Notes under the pieces: model-generated
Told to the model about the DNA's origin: nothing
Database searches by the model: none
Seen by the model: only the letters and a program-made list of their open reading frames with translations
Shown: piece after piece, positions 42,328 through 54,209 of the stretch
Layout of the letters: each line of letters opens with the position of its first letter
Position numbering within the stretch: the first letter of the stretch is position 1
Origin: Candidatus Sulfotelmatobacter sp.
GTDB lineage: Bacteria; Vulcanimicrobiota; Vulcanimicrobiia; Vulcanimicrobiales; Vulcanimicrobiaceae
Assembly (NCBI GenBank): GCA_035504415.1
Contig: DATJRY010000005.1
Coordinates: 124,001 to 188,000, forward strand
DNA length: 64,000 bases
Reading direction: 5' to 3'
Program-made: the position numbers and the translations under genes

Positions 42328-43911
42328 TCAGCGCGTGCGGCGCATGGCGACGATCGCGATGTCGTCGGTCACGTTCGTGGGCCCGGCGTCGCGCACGACG
42401 CGATCGCACAGCGCGTCCAGCTCGCCGCGGCCGTCGGCCACCGCGCGCGCGAGCCGCTCGAGGCCCTCTTCGATCGTCTCGCGGCGCCGTTCGATCAGCC
42501 CGTCGGTGAACAGAAGGAACAGATCGTCGCGCTCGAGCGCGAAGTCGTGCTCGGGCGCGGCTGCCGCTTCCACGCCGAGCAGCGGACCGCCGATCGGCAA
42601 GAAGCTCACGCCGCCGCGCGTCTGCAGCAGCGGCGGCGGATGCCCGGCGTTGGCCAAGGTGCCGCGGCCGTCGGTCGGATCGTAGACCGCGCAGCAGACC
42701 GTCGCGGTGACGTCGGGATGGAAGCGCAGCAGCAACCGGTTCAAGCGGACCAGCATGGCGCCCGGGCCGTGTCCCTCGAGCATGTACGAGCGAATCGCGG
42801 TCCGCAGCTGCGCCATCACCGCCGCGGCCTCCAGCGAGTGGCCGACCACGTCGCCGATCGCCACCACGATCCGGCCGTCCTCGAGGGTGAAGATCTCGTA
42901 GAAGTCGCCGCCGACCTCGGCGTGCTCGGCGCTGGCTTGGTAGCGCACGGCGATATCGACGCCCGGAATCGCGGGCACGACGTCCGGCAACAGGTTCCTC
43001 TGCAGCGTCAGCGCGATCTGCCGCTCGACGTCGAACGAACGCGCGTTGCGCAGCGCGATTCCGGCGGCGCGCGCGTACTGCTTGAGCACGACCTCCGCCT
43101 CGTCGCCGAAGGTGCGGATCGACGGCGACGCCGCGTGGCCGACCAGCAGAAAGCCGTGCACGCCCACCGGATCGCTGAACTCGGCGACCAGGAACGCGGG
43201 GACGCGCGCGACCGGCAGGACGCCCGCCAGCGCCGCCGCGCCGATCGAGGCGCGACCGGCCAGGACGCGCCGCGCGGCGTGCAGCACGGTCGCGTCGTGA
43301 TCGTACAGCACCGGCTCGTCGCCCGGCGCGGCGCCCGCCAGGAAGCTGCGTTCGCCGACCACGGCGGTTGCGATGGCGGTCGTCTCGAACAGCGCGGCCG
43401 CCTCGCCCGCGATCGCGATCAAAAGGTGCTCGAGCGTCGGCGCCTCGTTGAGCGCGTGGGTCGCATCGTTGAGCGCGCGCAGCCGGCGCGCCAACAGCGT
43501 GGCCGTGCGCTCGGCGGTCGCACCGCGCAACAGCGCTTCGACGCTGGCCAACAGCTCTTCGCGCTCGAGCGGCTCGACCAAATACCCCTCGGCGCCGCGG
43601 CGCAGTCCCTCGGAACGATCGGCCGGCTGGATCGCCGTCGCCGAGACGTGCAGCACCGGAATCGCGCCCGTCTCCGCGCCGGCCTTGACCCGCTCGCAGA
43701 CCTCGTACCCGGTCATGTCGGGCAGGTTGATGTCGAGCACGAGCAGGTCGGGCTGCTCGGAGAGGACGAGGTCGAGCGCCTCGGCGCCGGTCTTCCCTTC
43801 GATCACGTCGTAGCCGGCGCGGCGCAGCCACGTCGCCAAGACGTACCGGTTGCTCTCGCTGTCGTCGACGACGAGGATGCGGGTCCCCTCCGGGTTGGAT
43901 GCGTACGTCAC
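42328..43911 (-). CDS. response regulator with GAF and PP2C (SpoIIE/RsbU-type) phosphatase domains
   Basis: A 527-residue protein. The receiver (residues 11-125) has Asp16/Asp17 and phosphoacceptor Asp60 (VLDINLPDMTG), but the switch lysine position is Glu113 (YLVEPLE). A GAF-like domain spans about 130-300. The PP2C domain (310-525) carries GGDFYEI, AIGDVVGHS, FTDGLIERR and TDDIAIVAM, whose aspartates bind Mn. It should dephosphorylate a STAS protein in response to phosphorylation. The GTG start overlaps the upstream hybrid kinase gene by four bases. It is the last gene of the stressosome operon and its presumed output. Confidence 0.92.
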   Translation of the reverse strand: MTYASNPEGTRILVVDDSESNRYVLATWLRRAGYDVIEGKTGAEALDLVLSEQPDLLVLDINLPDMTGYEVCERVKAGAETGAIPVLHVSATAIQPADRSEGLRRGAEGYLVEPLEREELLASVEALLRGATAERTATLLARRLRALNDATHALNEAPTLEHLLIAIAGEAAALFETTAIATAVVGERSFLAGAAPGDEPVLYDHDATVLHAARRVLAGRASIGAAALAGVLPVARVPAFLVAEFSDPVGVHGFLLVGHAASPSIRTFGDEAEVVLKQYARAAGIALRNARSFDVERQIALTLQRNLLPDVVPAIPGVDIAVRYQASAEHAEVGGDFYEIFTLEDGRIVVAIGDVVGHSLEAAAVMAQLRTAIRSYMLEGHGPGAMLVRLNRLLLRFHPDVTATVCCAVYDPTDGRGTLANAGHPPPLLQTRGGVSFLPIGGPLLGVEAAAAPEHDFALERDDLFLLFTDGLIERRRETIEEGLERLARAVADGRGELDALCDRVVRDAGPTNVTDDIAIVAMRRTR

Positions 43912-45680
43912 GTCGGCAATACCGCGTGGTCGAGCGCATCGGCGATCGCGCCCTGCACGACCTCGCGGCTGATGTTGCTCTTCGCCAGCAGCGCCGCGGC
44001 AGACCCCAGCGTGGTGCGGACGTTCGGCGAGAGCTCGACGGAGGTCACGATCACGACCGGGATCGCGCGCAGAGCCGGGTCGCCGCTCATCTCGGCGAGG
44101 ACGGCGGCGCCGTCCAGGTCGGGCATGCACAAGTCGAGGAAGGCCAGCGTCGGGGCGCGCTCGCGCAGCAGCTTGAGTCCCTCGATCCCGCCGCGCGCCT
44201 CGAGCACCTGTCCCGCCACGCCTTGCAGCATCCCGCGCAGCGCGGTCCGGAAGCCGTCGTCGTCGTCGACGATCAGCACGGTCGGCACCGACACCGCGCG
44301 GGCCGGCTGCTGCCCCGGCGTCCGCACCGCGCGCAACAGCGGCTGCCAGAGCAGCGGCAAGCGGATCGTGAACGTGCTGCCGCGGCCGGGATCGCTCTCG
44401 ACCGCCATCTCGCCGCCCAGCGTCTGCGTGAGCCGGCGCGCGTAGGGTAAGCCCAGGCCGGTCCCCTTCTGCTCCGCCTGCAACGGACCGCGCACCTGAT
44501 AGAACTCTTCGAAGATCCGCTCGATGTCCTCGCGCGCGATCCCGATTCCGCTGTCGCTGACGGTGATCTCGACGCTGTGCGACGAGTCGGCGCGCGCGTG
44601 CAGCCGAACCGTCCCGTCCGGGGTGAACTTCAACGCGTTGGTCAGCAGGTTGCGCAGCACCTGACCGAGCAGCTGCGGGTCGGTCTCGACCGGCGGCAAA
44701 TCGGGCTCGACCGCGACCTGGAGGCTCACGCCCGCGCGCGCCAGCGGACGCAGCGCGCCGCGCAGCTCGCCGAAGAGCTGACCGAGGTCGACGGATTGCA
44801 CGTCGGGCTCGATGCGTCCCGACTCCGCCTTGGCCAAATCGAGCAGCTGGTTGACCAGCAGCAGCAGCTCGGAACCGGACACGCGGATGAGCGCCAACTG
44901 TTGGCGCTGCGCGCTGGTGAGCTGCTCCGAGGCCGGATCGAGCAGCAGCCGCGCCAGCGCGAGGACCGAGTTGACCGGGCTGCGCAGCTCGTGACTGACG
45001 TTGGCGAGAAAACGGCTCTTGGCTTCGTTCGCCTGGTTGAGACGCACGGTCTTGTCGTCGATCTCGGCGTACAGTGCGACGACGCCGCGATTGGTCTCCT
45101 CGAGCTCGTCGGCCAACTGCGCGTACATCGCCATCACGCCGCGGTTGGTCTCCTCGAGCTCGCCGTTGAGCTGCTCGAGCTGGTCTTGCCGTTCGCGCAA
45201 GGCCGAGAGCGTCGCGATCAAGTCGCGGTTCTCCAGCCGCAGCTCGTCCAGCGCGCTCGGCGAGGTGATGCCCGCGAGCGCGGTGCGCAGCTCCTCTTCG
45301 CTCTGCCGGCGCGGCGCGCCCGGCCGCGGGCGCATCAGCACGCCGATCGCGCTGGTGCGCGCACCGTCGCTCACCTCGACGTCCTCGACCAGCCGGCGCG
45401 CGGCTTGCAGCCCGACGATCCCGGTGTCGACCCGTGCGCCGCTGCGCGGGAAGTTCTCGAACGCGACGTGCAGCGCGCCGTCGCCGCGCAAGGTGAAGAT
45501 CGCCCGCGCTTTGCGACTGCCGCCGGCCAACGATTCGCGTCCCAGCTCGCTCAGCGCGGTGGCGAAGCGGACCTGGTCCGCTTCGTCGCAGCCGATTCCG
45601 GCGGCGGCGACGCGCGCCGCCTGCCGGAGGGCGAAGACGTCCTCGGCACGCTCGATCGGGAGCGTCGCGACGTCGCTCAC
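43908..45680 (-). CDS. hybrid histidine kinase with degenerate RsbT-like N-terminal domain
   Basis: A 590-residue cytosolic protein. Residues 1-118 align with RsbT (VATLPIERAEDVFALRQAAR, ALSELGRESL, GIVGLQAARRLVEDVEV), but the N-box Asn and the DxGxGI loop are missing. A coiled coil (145-222) contains a tandem 18-residue repeat with ELEETNRGV. HisKA has His230 (NVSHELRSPVN). HATPase has DSGIGI and GTGLGLPYA. The C-terminal receiver (about 460-590) has DDDD, LDLCMPDLDG and LAKS. It is joined by GTGA overlaps to both neighbours. It likely receives the stressosome signal and phosphorylates the receiver-PP2C protein. Confidence 0.92.
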   Translation of the reverse strand: MSDVATLPIERAEDVFALRQAARVAAAGIGCDEADQVRFATALSELGRESLAGGSRKARAIFTLRGDGALHVAFENFPRSGARVDTGIVGLQAARRLVEDVEVSDGARTSAIGVLMRPRPGAPRRQSEEELRTALAGITSPSALDELRLENRDLIATLSALRERQDQLEQLNGELEETNRGVMAMYAQLADELEETNRGVVALYAEIDDKTVRLNQANEAKSRFLANVSHELRSPVNSVLALARLLLDPASEQLTSAQRQQLALIRVSGSELLLLVNQLLDLAKAESGRIEPDVQSVDLGQLFGELRGALRPLARAGVSLQVAVEPDLPPVETDPQLLGQVLRNLLTNALKFTPDGTVRLHARADSSHSVEITVSDSGIGIAREDIERIFEEFYQVRGPLQAEQKGTGLGLPYARRLTQTLGGEMAVESDPGRGSTFTIRLPLLWQPLLRAVRTPGQQPARAVSVPTVLIVDDDDGFRTALRGMLQGVAGQVLEARGGIEGLKLLRERAPTLAFLDLCMPDLDGAAVLAEMSGDPALRAIPVVIVTSVELSPNVRTTLGSAAALLAKSNISREVVQGAIADALDHAVLPT

Positions 45681-46693
45681 GAGGCGCGCGCCACCGCGAT
45701 CGACGCGTCGTCGCGCCGCACCCCGGCGTCGCGCATCAGCGTCGCCGCCACCAGGTGCGGATCGCGCGCGCGCAAGCCGGGATACGCGTCCAGGTCCCAC
45801 TTCGAAGAGAGCCCGTCGGAGTGCAGCAGCACCAGCGATCGCGGCGCCAGCGGCACCGTCACCTCGCGGATCGTGCGCGCGTTGTTGCCGACGATGCCGG
45901 CCGAGGACACCAACGCGCGACGGCGCTCGCCGTCGTCGATCCAGGCCGCGACGTTGCCGACGCCGGCGAACGTCAGCGACGCGCTGCTCGGGTCGATCCG
46001 CACGATCGCGACGGCCGCGCCGCGCGTGCCGCGCAACGCCTGGTCGAGCCGTTTGAGCGTGCTCGCGGGGTTCGGATCGGACTCGCCCGCGGTGAAGGCC
46101 CGCACCGCGGCGCGCGCGGCGATCGCCGCGATCTCGCCGTGGCCGAGCCCGTCGACCAGGGCGACGCTGGTCGCCTCACCGTCGAGGCGGTACGCGCAGG
46201 CGTCGCCGCAGACCGCCTCGCCGTTCATCGGGCGCGTGATCGCGGCGATCCGCGGCGGCCGCTGCGCGGTCGGCTGGCGCCAGAACGTCGCGATCGTGAC
46301 CGTGCCGCGCCCGACGACCGAGTGACTGTCGAACCAGCTGGCGAGCCGCATCGCGGCGCCCAGGCCGATGCCGAGCGTTCCGGACGTCGAATGGTGGTCG
46401 ATCGACGACGCGGCGAGATCGGCCATCCCGGGACCGGCGTCGACGACGACCAGCTCGACGGCGGCGTCGTTCGGAATGCGGCGCAGGCGAACCAAGATCG
46501 CGCCCGCGACCGCGTGCCGGTAAAGGTTGGTGGCCAGCTCGGTCGCCGCGATGGCGACCTCGCCTGCACGGTGTTCGTCGAAGCCCAGCCGCCGGGCCAA
46601 CGCGCTGGCCGCGCGTCGCACGCTTCCCGGTGCGCTCTCGTCCTCGACGGGAATCCAGGCGATGTCCTCGACCGGCTCGTTCAGCGCTTCCAC
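45677..46693 (-). CDS. RsbT-RsbX fusion: anti-sigma-type ATPase plus PP2C phosphatase
   Basis: A 338-residue protein. Residues 1-140 are a GHKL kinase of the RsbT/RsbW type, with a good N-box (AATELATNLYRHA) and G1 (VVVDAGPGMADLA). Residues 145-338 are an RsbX-like PP2C (CGDACAYRLDGEATSVALVDGLGHG, LLHSDGLSSKWDL, RRDDASIAVAR). In B. subtilis RsbX resets RsbR/RsbS by dephosphorylation, so this protein combines a kinase and the resetting phosphatase. The GTG start overlaps rsbT by 13 bases, and the stop overlaps the hybrid kinase start. Confidence 0.92.
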   Translation of the reverse strand: MEALNEPVEDIAWIPVEDESAPGSVRRAASALARRLGFDEHRAGEVAIAATELATNLYRHAVAGAILVRLRRIPNDAAVELVVVDAGPGMADLAASSIDHHSTSGTLGIGLGAAMRLASWFDSHSVVGRGTVTIATFWRQPTAQRPPRIAAITRPMNGEAVCGDACAYRLDGEATSVALVDGLGHGEIAAIAARAAVRAFTAGESDPNPASTLKRLDQALRGTRGAAVAIVRIDPSSASLTFAGVGNVAAWIDDGERRRALVSSAGIVGNNARTIREVTVPLAPRSLVLLHSDGLSSKWDLDAYPGLRARDPHLVAATLMRDAGVRRDDASIAVARAS

Positions 46694-47073
46694 TTGGTCA
46701 CCGTGACCCTCGTTCCACGGCCGGGTCCCGTTTCGATGTCGAACGCGTCGACCAACCGGCGACTGCCGGACAATCCGAGTCCCAGGCCGCCGGCGGTCGT
46801 GTAGCCGCCGGCAAGCGCCAGGTCGAGGTTCTGGATACCCGGACCCTGATCGACGAAAGCCGCCCGCAGTCCCGTCCGCGACCCCTCGTGCAGCAGCTCG
46901 AGCTGCGCGCGGCCCCCGCCGCCGTGGATCAGCGTGTTGCGCGCCAGCTCGCTCGCGGCGGTGACGATCTTGGTTTGATCGACGATCGAGAGCGCCACTT
47001 GCGCGGCCATCGCACGGACGGCCTGACGTACGCGAACCACGTCGGCGTCGTTGTTGATCTCCAGTTCTTCCAC
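46681..47073 (-). CDS. rsbT: RsbT serine/threonine kinase of the stressosome
   Basis: A 130-residue GHKL kinase. The N-box is AASELARNTLIHG, G1 is FVDQGPGIQN and the G2 region is GGLGLGLSGSRRLVD, all intact. RsbT is held by the RsbR/RsbS complex, phosphorylates them on stress, then is released to activate a downstream partner. RsbU, the usual partner, is absent. It lies between rsbS (33-base gap) and the RsbT-RsbX fusion. Confidence 0.95.
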   Translation of the reverse strand: MEELEINNDADVVRVRQAVRAMAAQVALSIVDQTKIVTAASELARNTLIHGGGGRAQLELLHEGSRTGLRAAFVDQGPGIQNLDLALAGGYTTAGGLGLGLSGSRRLVDAFDIETGPGRGTRVTVTKWKR

Positions 47074-47106: not shown

Positions 47107-47529
47107 TCACGAGATGCGCTCGCCCCCATCGGCCGCGTCGTCCGGCTCGTCACCGTCGTTGTCGGTCGCACCGCGGCCGGCTTCGCGCAGCAGCGTGAAG
47201 GCTCGCTCGGCGTTGAGGGCCGTGCGCACGCCGCCCAGCGAGAGGCCCAGCTCCGCCAGGGTGATCGCGACCGCCGGACGCATCCCGCACACGACCGTCT
47301 CCGCGTCGAGCACGCGCGCCATCGAGGCGATCGTCGCCAACATGCGCCCGATGAACGTGTCGACGATCTCGAGCGCCGAGATCTCGATGATCACGCCCGT
47401 GGCGCCGGTCTCGACGATGCGATTGGAGAGGTCCTCTTGCAGTGCCAGCGTCGTCTGATCGCTGACGTCGACCTGGATCGAGACCATCAAGACCTGCCCG
47501 ATCTTGACGATCGGGACGCGCTCGATCAT
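47107..47529 (-). CDS. rsbS: RsbS stressosome scaffold STAS protein
   Basis: A 140-residue STAS protein: IERVPIVKIGQVLMVSIQVDVSD, then EISALEIVDTFIGRML, which is the phosphorylation loop. The residue aligned with B. subtilis Ser59 is Thr58 here. A 20-residue acidic tail follows the STAS fold. RsbS and RsbR form the icosahedral stressosome core that holds RsbT. The ATG overlaps the rsbR stop (ATGA). Confidence 0.95.
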   Translation of the reverse strand: MIERVPIVKIGQVLMVSIQVDVSDQTTLALQEDLSNRIVETGATGVIIEISALEIVDTFIGRMLATIASMARVLDAETVVCGMRPAVAITLAELGLSLGGVRTALNAERAFTLLREAGRGATDNDGDEPDDAADGGERIS

Positions 47530-48380
47530 GCGCGCTTTTCGATCTTGCGGACCTCGAGGCCGGCGCGCTGCAAGGTGATCTTCAACGCGTCGGCGAGGCT
47601 CGATTTGGTGACGATGTCGCCGAACTCGACGCCCAGCGCGACGATCGTCTGGGCGATCTGCGGGCGGATCCCCGAGATCACGCAGTCGGCGCCCATCAGC
47701 CGTGCGGCGAAGACGGTCTTGAGCAAGTGCTGCGCGACCTGCGTGTCGACGGCCGGCACGCCGGTGATGTCGATGATGGCGTGGGCGCTGCCGGTCGAGA
47801 GGAGCGTCTGCAGGAGCTGCTCCATCACGACCTGCGTGCGCTCGGAGTCGAGCGTGCCGACCAGCGGCAGCGCGACGATGCCGTCCCACAGCTTGACCAC
47901 CGGCGTCGAGAGCTCGAGCAGCTGCTCGGCCTGATTGGTGATGACCGCTTCGCGCGTCTGCACGAAGGCTTCGAACGTCTGCAGGCCGAGCGCGTCGATG
48001 AACGACGAGAAGGTCGCGAACTCGGCGAACGAGTATGGCGGCGTCTTCTCCTCGCGCGCGACCTGCAGCACCGCGTCGCGCAGGGCGAAGACGGCGACCG
48101 CGGTCTCGCTCGGGGTGAAGCCTTGGCGCGCTCGCGTACGCGAGTACTCGGTCAGCATCGCGCGCACTTCCGCGAAGTCCGGCGCGTCCAAGCTCAGCGA
48201 TCCCTGTTGCGCGGCGGCGATCAGCGCGTCGAGCAACGGGGTCAGCTCGCGTTCGGCCTCGTCCGGGGTCATGCGCCCCCGCGAAGCGCTCAGGACCGTC
48301 TGGATCCAAGCTTTGGCGATGCGCTCGCGCTCGCGAGCGAGGTAGGTGATGACGAGGTTCGTCGTTTGCTGCGGTGCCAT
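47526..48380 (-). CDS. rsbR: RsbR-type stressosome sensor (RsbRD-like N-domain plus STAS)
   Basis: A 284-residue protein. Residues 1-155 are an all-helical RsbRD-type sensor (AKAWIQTVLSASRGRMTPDEAERELTPLLDAL). The STAS domain (160-280) keeps Thr159 (ELSTPVVKLWDGI) and Thr213 (DITGVPAVDTQVAQHLLK), the two sites RsbT phosphorylates in B. subtilis. GGAAG precedes ATG 48380. It is the first gene of the operon, with no clear promoter in the 176-base divergent gap. Confidence 0.95.
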   Translation of the reverse strand: MAPQQTTNLVITYLARERERIAKAWIQTVLSASRGRMTPDEAERELTPLLDALIAAAQQGSLSLDAPDFAEVRAMLTEYSRTRARQGFTPSETAVAVFALRDAVLQVAREEKTPPYSFAEFATFSSFIDALGLQTFEAFVQTREAVITNQAEQLLELSTPVVKLWDGIVALPLVGTLDSERTQVVMEQLLQTLLSTGSAHAIIDITGVPAVDTQVAQHLLKTVFAARLMGADCVISGIRPQIAQTIVALGVEFGDIVTKSSLADALKITLQRAGLEVRKIEKRA

Positions 48381-51704: not shown

Positions 51705-54209
51705 GTGGACGAGCAGCGATCGGACGGTCTCGATCGAAGCAGCGCCGCGCGCGCCTTGGCCGACGCCATGCCCCACGTGGTCTGGGTCTCGGCCGCCGAC
51801 GGCCGCTTCGAATGGTTCAACGCGCGGTGGTATACCTACACCGGCCTGGGTTTCGAGCAGACGGTCGCAGCCTTCCACAACGAGCGCAGCGCCGTCTTCC
51901 ACGCCGACGACGTCGACGCGTTCCTGGCCGGCTGGTACGACGCGCTGCGCAAAGGCCGGCCGTTCGAGATCGAGACGCGGCTGCGCGGCGTCGACGGCGT
52001 CTACCGGTGGTTTCTCGCGCGCTCCTCGCCGGTCGTCGACCAAGCCGGGCGCATCGTGCAGTGGCTCGGTACCTTCACCGACATCGACGACCGCAAGCAC
52101 GCGGAAGCCCAGAGCTTGTACTTGGCCGCCGCCAGCGAGGTGCTCGGCTCGTCGCTCGACCTGACGGCGACGTTGCGCGAGCTGGCCGAGCTGGCCGTCC
52201 CGGCGATGGCCGACTGGTGCTCGGTGCTGCTGCTGCAGCGCGACGGCGCGCTGACCCCGGTCGCGTACGCACCCGACGACGCCGACCGCCGCCAGCTGGC
52301 CGCGATTTTCACCGAGCCGAGCGTCGAAGGGCTCAGTGCGGCCGACGTCGCGCACACCGGCAAGTCGCTGCTGATCTCGCAGGCGCCCGCGCCCGCGCGC
52401 TCGCTGATCACGGTGGCGCTGGTCGGGCGCTCGCGCATCTACGGCGCACTGCAGCTGGCGACCGGGCCGTCGGGGCGGGTGCTCGACGCGCGCGACCTGC
52501 GCACCGCCGAGACGTTGGCCGCGCGCGCCGCGACCGCGATCGAGAACGCGCGACTCTACCAGCAGGTGCAGTTCGCGGCGCGCGCGGGCGAAGCGCTGGC
52601 CGAGTCGCTCGACTCCGAGACGACCATGCGGCGCGTGCTGGACTTGATCGTCCCGGCGTTGGCCGATTGGGCCGTCATCGACCTGTTCGACGAGCAAGGC
52701 CGCGTCTACATCGGCGCGATGGTCCATGCCGATCCGGCCATGGCACCGCTGGTGGCGCGCTTGACCGGCGCCTCGACCGCGCGCCCCGAGTTCTCCGAGC
52801 TGGTCGCGACCGCGGTGCGCGCGCCGGCTACCACGGTCACGCCGCAGATCGATCCCAACGTCGTCGCGACGCTGGTGCTGCCCGAGTACCGCGACGCGAT
52901 GCTGGCGCTCGACGGGCGCTCGTCGATCCTCGTGCCGCTGCGCTCCGGCGGGCGCGCGCTGGGCGCGCTGGTCGCGTACTTCACCGCCTCGACGCGCCGC
53001 TTCAGCGACGAGGACGTGCCGATGTTCGAAGAGGTCGCGCGCCGCGCCGCGGTCGCGATCGAGAACGCGCAGCTCTACGAATCGGAGCGGCACGTCGCCA
53101 ACGCCTTTCAGCGCGCCGCGCTGCCCAGCTCGCTGCCCGTGCTCGAGGGGGTCACCTTCGACGCCGTCTACGTCGCGGCGCGCAACGAGGCGCAGGTCGG
53201 CGGCGACTGGTACGACGCGGTCCGATTGCCCGATGGCCGCATCGTCGTCTCGATCGGCGACGTCGCCGGCAGCGGACTCGAGGCCGCCGTCATCATGGCC
53301 GCGATGCGCCAGATCCTGCGCGGCGTCGCGCACGTCTACGCCGATCCGGCGACGATGATCGACGCCGCCGACCGCACCTTGAAGGCCGAGCATCCCGGCC
53401 GCATCGTGACCGCCGTGGCGGCCGTTTTCGACCCGATCGCCAACACGCTCTCGTACGCGAATGCCGGCCATCCGCGGCCGCTGGTCCGCGCCGCCGACGG
53501 CCGCGTGCACGAGCTCCCCTCCGAAGGGTTGCCGTTGGGACTGCGCGACCGCGGCGACGCCGAGACGCGCGTCGTCCCGCTCGAGCGCGACGCGCTGTTC
53601 GTCTTCTTCACCGACGGGCTGACCGAGTCGACCCGCGACCCGATCGAAGGCGAACGGCTGCTGCGCACGGCGCTGGCCAGCCCGGCGATCGTCGCGCGCC
53701 GCGACGCCGCCGTCGCGCTCTACGACACGCTGCTGGCCGCCGGAACGCACGACGACGTCGTCGTGCTGACGATGCACGTCGCCGGCGAGCCCGAACACGT
53801 CTCGCGCTGGCACTTCGAGACCGGCGACGCAGGCGCGGCGCGCGCGACCCGCGAGTCGTTCGCGCAGACGCTGGCGCGCATGGGCGTGAACGGCGAGAGC
53901 GCGTTCACCGCCGAGCTGATCTTCAGCGAGCTGCTCGGCAACGTCGTGCGCTACGCGCCCGGCGCGGTCGAGGTCGCGCTCGAGTGCGCCGGCCGGCTGC
54001 CGCCGGTGCTGCACTTCTTCGACCGCGGTCCCGGCTTCGACGTCGTCCCGCGACTGCCGACCGACCGGCTCAGCGAGCGCGGACGCGGTCTGTTCCTGGT
54101 GTGGTCGATGGCCGAGGACTTCAGCGTCGCCAAGCGCCCCGGCGGCGGCTCGCACGCGCGCGCCGTGCTGCCGGTGCGTTCCGAGGCGCGTCAGCCGCTG
54201 CGCAGCTAG
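51705..54209 (+). CDS. PAS-GAF-GAF-PP2C-HATPase signalling protein
   Basis: An 834-residue cytosolic protein. PAS at about 15-140 (ADGRFEWFNARWYTYTGL, GTFTDIDDRKHAE). GAF domains at about 145-305 and 310-470. PP2C of the RsbU/SpoIIE type at about 475-690 (VGGDWYDAV near 498, SIGDVAGSG, FFTDGLTES, HDDVVVLTM). A C-terminal RsbW-like HATPase at about 700-830 has AELIFSELLGNVVRYAPG and FDRGPGFDV. It combines an antagonist phosphatase and an anti-sigma kinase, setting the state of a STAS protein such as the one at 20648. GTG start, AAGGCGGG 7 bases upstream. Its TAG overlaps the stop of the opposite gene in CTAG. Confidence 0.93.
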   Translation: MDEQRSDGLDRSSAARALADAMPHVVWVSAADGRFEWFNARWYTYTGLGFEQTVAAFHNERSAVFHADDVDAFLAGWYDALRKGRPFEIETRLRGVDGVYRWFLARSSPVVDQAGRIVQWLGTFTDIDDRKHAEAQSLYLAAASEVLGSSLDLTATLRELAELAVPAMADWCSVLLLQRDGALTPVAYAPDDADRRQLAAIFTEPSVEGLSAADVAHTGKSLLISQAPAPARSLITVALVGRSRIYGALQLATGPSGRVLDARDLRTAETLAARAATAIENARLYQQVQFAARAGEALAESLDSETTMRRVLDLIVPALADWAVIDLFDEQGRVYIGAMVHADPAMAPLVARLTGASTARPEFSELVATAVRAPATTVTPQIDPNVVATLVLPEYRDAMLALDGRSSILVPLRSGGRALGALVAYFTASTRRFSDEDVPMFEEVARRAAVAIENAQLYESERHVANAFQRAALPSSLPVLEGVTFDAVYVAARNEAQVGGDWYDAVRLPDGRIVVSIGDVAGSGLEAAVIMAAMRQILRGVAHVYADPATMIDAADRTLKAEHPGRIVTAVAAVFDPIANTLSYANAGHPRPLVRAADGRVHELPSEGLPLGLRDRGDAETRVVPLERDALFVFFTDGLTESTRDPIEGERLLRTALASPAIVARRDAAVALYDTLLAAGTHDDVVVLTMHVAGEPEHVSRWHFETGDAGAARATRESFAQTLARMGVNGESAFTAELIFSELLGNVVRYAPGAVEVALECAGRLPPVLHFFDRGPGFDVVPRLPTDRLSERGRGLFLVWSMAEDFSVAKRPGGGSHARAVLPVRSEARQPLRS

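Follow-up and report, generated by a model that had tools for sequence, protein, structure and literature searches.

Why would a hybrid histidine kinase encoded in a stressosome operon carry at its N-terminus an RsbT domain that has lost its ATP site? The question is raised by a 64,000-nucleotide stretch of a Candidatus Sulfotelmatobacter sp. genome (contig DATJRY010000005.1, positions 124,001 to 188,000), referred to here as the window; all gene coordinates below are positions within it unless a locus handle is given. The kinase gene (590 aa, GTG start) lies at 43908..45680 on the minus strand, and residues 1–118 of its product (45327..45680, minus strand) form a head that profile comparison, AlphaFold2, Foldseek and alignment define as a pseudo-RsbT. 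We consider it moderately probable that the protein is a stressosome-coupled hybrid kinase, whose dead RsbT head would dock on the STAS domains of RsbS and RsbR and control a His-Asp relay through a signalling helix.

An earlier note, written from the letters of this DNA, had described residues 1–118 as RsbT-like, and the motifs it quoted all lie at the place it gave for them. Searching the whole of the organism's own genome matched the head to the operon's RsbT with E 9e-4 and 38% identity. Using hhalign, a profile of eight degenerate heads was aligned to stand-alone RsbTs with a probability of 97.4 (E 9.5e-12) and to the intact RsbT heads of other kinases with a probability of 99.1 (E 1.9e-18); the negative control, the kinases' own HATPase_c domains, gave 2.5. 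The resemblance between head and RsbT is not due to chance. Single library models were largely blind to it: no Pfam model reaches residues 1–118 on its own, PDB sequence profiles alone do not reach the degenerate head, and NCBIfam models cover only the kinase core. Structure prediction with AlphaFold2 gave a b-a-a-b-b-a-b order from the head sequence alone. Addition of two orthologues yielded a b-a-a-b-b-(a)-a-b-b topology with a mean predicted local distance difference test score (pLDDT) of 85.7 and a predicted template-modelling (TM) score of 0.83. The top 21 Foldseek matches of this head in the PDB were all SpoIIAB, RsbW, UsfX, Rv1364c (RsbW domain) or SiaB, with TM scores reaching 0.66 (query) and 0.79 (target). 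In the model the head adopts the RsbT/RsbW/SpoIIAB (GHKL) fold, the fold that the earlier note had put forward for checking.

Alignment to the operon's RsbT bore out the proposed loss of the nucleotide site. At the positions where RsbT reads TAASELARNTLIH ... DQGPGI ... GGLGLGLSGSRRLVD, the head reads TALSELGRESLAG ... ENFPRSG ... (gap) ... VGLQAARRLVE. The N-box Asn is replaced by Glu49, DxGxG is absent, and the lid is deleted together with the first glycine of G2; R19, R38, S44, E45 and R48 are retained. Glu at the N-box and loss of both DxGxG and lid are common to the window kinase and its three orthologues (4/4). Lacking the N-box Asn, DxGxG and the glycine-rich lid, the head is descended from RsbT and is predicted not to be a functional one. 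Where degenerate-head operons were inspected, their stand-alone RsbT proved intact, so the operon still has its switch kinase.

We next consider the residues that face the partner protein. In SpoIIAB, residues E16, R20, E39, S45 and T49 lie at the STAS partner or close to it, K41 contacts sigma and E46 is the catalytic base (PMC10345196); RsbW makes contacts through R23, D42, K44, S48 and E49 (PMC7340262). The SpoIIAB reference sequence agrees with the PDB alignment over residues 33–138, and its numbering with the residues named in PMC10345196. The head residues aligned to these SpoIIAB/RsbW contact sites are V15, R19, R38, S44, R48, A40 and E45. At all seven sites, 8/8 degenerate heads of the Eremiobacterota and Actinomycetota lineage keep the residue found in the majority of intact heads. 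Retention over ten nucleotide-site positions of the same eight heads averaged 14%, with the N-box Asn and DxGxG each at 0/8, as against 18/18 for both in intact heads. Kept and lost sites are interleaved in the N-terminal half, positions 45, 46 and 49 (SpoIIAB numbering) being kept and position 50 lost. Docking on RsbS/RsbR, which the earlier note had offered as a plausible reading, is accordingly our best reading of the head because the residues aligned to the STAS-contact face are kept; it is a prediction drawn from sequence comparison.

This pattern also bears on whether the head does anything at all. A vestigial spacer inherited from an ancestral, active RsbT-headed kinase would agree with degeneration being derived and most relatives being intact. 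Such a relic is very unlikely given that all STAS-face positions are kept in 8/8 heads, that the N-box Asn was replaced by Glu or Asp in 8/8 rather than at random, that mean head identity within the degenerate Eremiobacterota and Actinomycetota clade is 41%, compared with 49% among intact heads, and that the head structure model is confident. The always acidic N-box replacement in the window's lineage and the retention of the catalytic base E45 (9/9) could instead speak for non-canonical binding of a nucleotide or other ligand, with Glu or Asp in place of Asn. We give this the least credence of all, since DxGxG and the lid are gone too and the second degenerate lineage has Thr or Ala at the N-box.

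Several points weigh against docking on STAS domains. The STAS face sits in the better-conserved N-terminal half (a1–a2), which partly confounds its retention, and b1/a1 doubles as a GHKL dimer element. Some of the "STAS-face" positions differ from SpoIIAB across the whole RsbT family, so that the likeness is to RsbT and not to SpoIIAB. Furthermore, it is ADP-bound SpoIIAB that holds its STAS partner tightly, with the lid residue E104 near the partner; the lid-less head may bind weakly or differently. The head might serve mainly in dimerization, pairing through b1/a1, like SpoIIAB and RsbW, with itself, with stand-alone RsbT or with the RsbT-PP2C protein, so that free RsbT rather than the STAS core would control the kinase. 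The RsbW dimer is formed by b1/a1 (PMC7340262), the aligned degenerate heads show no variation at V15, F16 and R19 of a1, and a parallel dimer is the expected state of the kinase. The a2 residues S44, E45 and R48 are, however, equally invariant though they lie off the dimer edge, and dimerization is compatible with docking rather than exclusive of it. As the main role of the head we regard it as unlikely. More improbable still is a head that prefers RsbR, docks there in a non-catalytic pose and, as a permanently bound allosteric ligand, tunes the hold of RsbS on RsbT, which would make the kinase a fixed stressosome subunit instead of a released client. Docking of the Listeria proteins points to a possible pose of RsbT on RsbR in which the ATP site is not presented (PMC9237128), a place that a dead RsbT would suit; this literature basis consists of models only, and the sequence evidence here does not separate RsbR from RsbS docking.

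HisKA (residues 220–288, H230; 44817..45023), HATPase_c (residues 334–443, motifs intact; 44352..44681) and the C-terminal receiver domain REC (residues 468–558; 44007..44279), all on the minus strand, are intact and each above the Pfam cut-off (3.9e-16, 3.9e-30 and 4.2e-13, respectively). Between head and HisKA lies a tandem 18-aa signalling-helix repeat (ELEETNRGVMAMYAQLAD / ELEETNRGVVALYAEIDD; residues 174–209, 45054..45161, minus strand). The Pfam search found no CHASE3, HAMP or GAF domain in the kinase, where the helix motif is present, and RsbU_N was absent among the Pfam matches of both the kinase and the REC-PP2C protein encoded next to it. From the conserved Asn at the helix start to the H-box His, nearly every measured kinase has 33, 61, 72 or 79 residues, two Planctomycetota rows having been misread or left unread by the script. 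The Sphingomonas linker has 87 residues and its phosphoacceptor domain is of another type. Steps between linker classes (61-33 = 28, 72-61 = 11, 79-72 = 7, 79-61 = 18) are of heptad/hendecad type, as expected for a continuous coiled coil of fixed phase. The 18-residue motif occurs in two tandem copies in the Eremiobacterota/Actinomycetota dead-head clade versus one in the intact long-linker kinases.

The kinase is the fifth gene of a run on the minus strand in the order RsbR-RsbS-RsbT-[RsbT+PP2C]-hybrid kinase-[REC+PP2C], confirming the stressosome context first noted for it. The run opens with an RsbR-type co-antagonist (RsbRD_N + STAS, 284 aa; 47526..48380; Pfam RsbRD_N 4.8e-23, STAS 7.5e-14). 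Its stop is overlapped by the ATG start of an RsbS-type STAS protein of ~140 aa (47107..47529), identified by Pfam STAS (1e-9 for a slightly shortened reading) and by syntenic orthologues. Stand-alone RsbT with intact ATP motifs follows (46681..47073), then an RsbT-like GHKL domain fused to a SpoIIE-type PP2C (45677..46693; Pfam HATPase_c_2 2e-12, SpoIIE 8.8e-13). The N-box of this GHKL domain is intact, and the protein is a putative RsbX-like feedback phosphatase. With rsbR, rsbS, rsbT and a PP2C feedback phosphatase adjacent, the locus has the make-up of an RsbRSTX stressosome in which the PP2C bears an extra RsbT-like domain. The last gene (42328..43911) encodes a 527-aa RsbY-like response regulator with REC and SpoIIE-type PP2C domains (Pfam Response_reg 1.1e-21, SpoIIE 9.5e-47). 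The kinase start overlaps the stop of the RsbT+PP2C gene, and the REC-PP2C start overlaps the kinase stop, each through GTGA; with several such junctions, the six genes are likely transcribed as one unit. Within RsbS, the apparently usual phosphorylation site is Thr (EIVDTF), compared with Ser (EIVDSF) in the orthologue from genome G042. Outside the run, a second large stress-type phosphatase is encoded on the plus strand at 51705-54209; by reading it is PAS-GAF-GAF-PP2C with a C-terminal RsbW-like ATPase, and it has an HATPase_c_2 match at G000:C5:177829-178146.

The nature of the last gene corrects one part of the earlier note, which had the kinase linking the stressosome to a His-Asp relay instead of RsbU. 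Because this gene is itself an RsbU/RsbY-type REC-PP2C, a phosphatase of this kind is the probable recipient of the relay and would be its end point. The next gene encodes REC+PP2C for 6/6 kinases of the window's (first degenerate) clade. A REC + kinase protein is encoded next in most of the intact-head operons that were inspected, as it is for the degenerate kinases of Caballeronia and G1130. The REC-PP2C orthologue in G042 (L040:2007-3872) has, by reading, an extra C-terminal RsbW-like GHKL domain that the window copy is without. Elsewhere in the organism's own genome lies an rsbV-rsbW-sigB operon (L177:3440-5052, G000 contig 13), whose sigma factor scores above the curated SigBFG cut-off. 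The genes upstream of this operon resemble YtxG/YtxH-type stress proteins, by reading only. A hybrid kinase with a REC-PP2C partner and rsbV-rsbW-sigB in the same genome are together the ingredients of an RsbK-RsbY module, and this operon is the likely target of the relay. It lies, however, on a different contig from the kinase, and a SigBFG factor above the cut-off occurs in 92/99 genomes of the family as opposed to the kinase in 4; sigma-B therefore has other inputs and is not specific to the kinase.

How widely do such heads occur? Among the 99 genomes of the family, three further ones hold orthologues (63, 53 and 54% identity), each in the same operon as the window kinase; their lineage is Candidatus Eremiobacterota. 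A pattern scan of the genome contigs returned only the known orthologues and two weak kinase matches, the patterns being too specific, and wider coverage of the family comes from a plasmid collection and genome searches. Relatives of head plus helix are borne on plasmids of Embleya, Nonomuraea, Streptomyces, Caballeronia, Deinococcus (including D. radiodurans R1 MP1) and Sphingomonas. Searching whole genomes brought in further relatives from Burkholderiaceae, Planctomycetota, other Pseudomonadota and a single distant Eremiobacterota genome. RsbT-headed signalling proteins therefore span Eremiobacterota, Actinomycetota (sampled through plasmid records only), Pseudomonadota, Deinococcota and Planctomycetota. 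Nearly all loci are RsbR-RsbS-RsbT-[RsbT+PP2C] operons. The exceptions are three intact-head kinases (L142, L146, L147) and L186, where RsbR is the only one of these genes close by; two Planctomycetota loci run off the end of their contig. The heads divide into about 26 intact and about 10 degenerate ones, the latter being four from Eremiobacterota, those of Embleya and Nonomuraea, two distinct Streptomyces sequences, and those of Caballeronia and genome G1130. The loss proposed for checking in homologues is thus conserved in the three orthologues and the actinobacterial relatives and not in the majority, and the homologues with intact motifs nearly all keep the operon association. On Streptomyces plasmids (L079:7950-9326, L080:7935-9305), degenerate head and helix are joined directly to a SpoIIE PP2C, the kinase being absent, again in a stressosome operon. 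The module is therefore an input unit that can be plugged into different outputs. Genome G1130 (Pseudomonadota) encodes two RsbT-headed kinases: one is degenerate in a full stressosome operon (L182), and the other has an intact N-box (L186) and adjoins a divergent RsbR gene only.

Since most relatives have intact heads, the degenerate head is a derived state. Trees were built from the kinase core with the head columns excluded, and the Streptomyces proteins, lacking this core, could not be placed. Six degenerate kinases from Eremiobacterota and Actinomycetota formed one clade (support 98/94 to 100/100), and Caballeronia and G1130 formed a second (95/97). The best trees require a minimum of two changes to the degenerate state, and the approximately unbiased test does not reject trees that unite all degenerate kinases in one clade (p 0.11 and 0.21). 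Two origins would accordingly be a statement of parsimony.

Taken as a docking module, the head suggests the following course of signalling. Keeping its STAS-facing surface, the pseudo-RsbT would plug the kinase into RsbS/RsbR of the stressosome, while the active stand-alone RsbT would supply the Ser/Thr kinase activity and the RsbT-PP2C protein the reset. Driven by this active RsbT, phosphorylation or a change in shape of RsbS/RsbR would rearrange the docked head or, more probably, release it, and this change would travel through the rigid, phase-locked signalling helix to the HisKA dimer. Both directions, docked as off and docked as on, are compatible with the data, release being the probable trigger. 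The kinase would then pass phosphate to the co-encoded RsbY-like REC-PP2C, which may dephosphorylate an RsbV-type STAS protein and so free sigma-B from RsbW. In acting on RsbU, RsbT orders a coiled-coil linker, which has prompted the proposal that phosphatases, kinases and cyclases can be exchanged as modules (PMC12143880); in the window kinase the RsbT-derived head and the linker are a single polypeptide.

The system shares features with several known ones. With RsbT of the B. subtilis, Listeria and Vibrio RsbRST stressosomes the head has in common its fold, the invariant Arg in a1 and S-E-x-x-R in a2, and the operon has in common the partners RsbR and RsbS. Unlike RsbT, the head is fused to a histidine kinase, is without the N-box Asn, DxGxG and lid, is predicted to be inactive, and has a separate active RsbT in its operon. 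The B. cereus RsbK-RsbY pair has the same hybrid kinase to REC-PP2C logic, a signalling helix before the H-box and a C-terminal REC (PMC4574943). RsbK is a transmembrane sensor with CHASE3-HAMP-GAF input (PMC4574943), whereas the window kinase has an RsbT-derived head and lies in a stressosome operon. The signalling helix of the RsbK-RsbY module is methylated by RsbM. RsbU_N modules (RsbU, an M. thermoacetica GGDEF protein and proteobacterial kinases) are likewise stressosome-coupled outputs with a coiled-coil linker, but carry the domain that RsbT binds, whereas the window kinase carries the RsbT-derived domain itself (PMC9237108, PMC12143880). The intact-head kinases of D. radiodurans MP1 (DR_RS15590), Sphingomonas, Burkholderiaceae and Planctomycetota share the operon and the head-helix-kinase architecture; they differ in having ATP motifs and one helix repeat and, in most of those inspected, in being followed by a gene for REC with a further kinase instead of REC-PP2C.

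Stressosome operons with downstream two-component genes and RsbU_N-bearing outputs have been described (PMC9237108). Most downstream stressosome proteins are without RsbU_N, RsbT-dependent phosphorylation has been offered as a possible route to them, and no positive interaction between RsbT and a downstream kinase was obtained for the Vibrio stressosome (PMC9237108). Searches of the open literature turned up no account of a kinase with an RsbT head or of a pseudo-RsbT; two older subscription papers cited in PMC8115616, Pane-Farre 2005 (RsbRST output modules) and de Been 2011 (hybrid kinases in sigma-B modules), might refer to such a fusion.

The observation that started this work was right, holds more strongly than first put, and extends to a wider family beyond the window. 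Tentatively, and with less confidence than for the window kinase itself, pseudo-RsbT heads may form a distinct stressosome docking class, in which histidine kinases or, in Streptomyces, PP2Cs are captive clients replacing free RsbT as messenger; these GHKL switch-kinase pseudokinases would have arisen at least two times from active RsbT-headed kinases. With heads that are intact, dead or fused to a phosphatase, nature offers a series in which the docking role of RsbT could be separated from its kinase role, and the intact-head version exists in a tractable organism, D. radiodurans. To the question of how stressosomes outside the Firmicutes reach two-component outputs, an output kinase with its own RsbT-derived head would be a concrete and easily testable answer.

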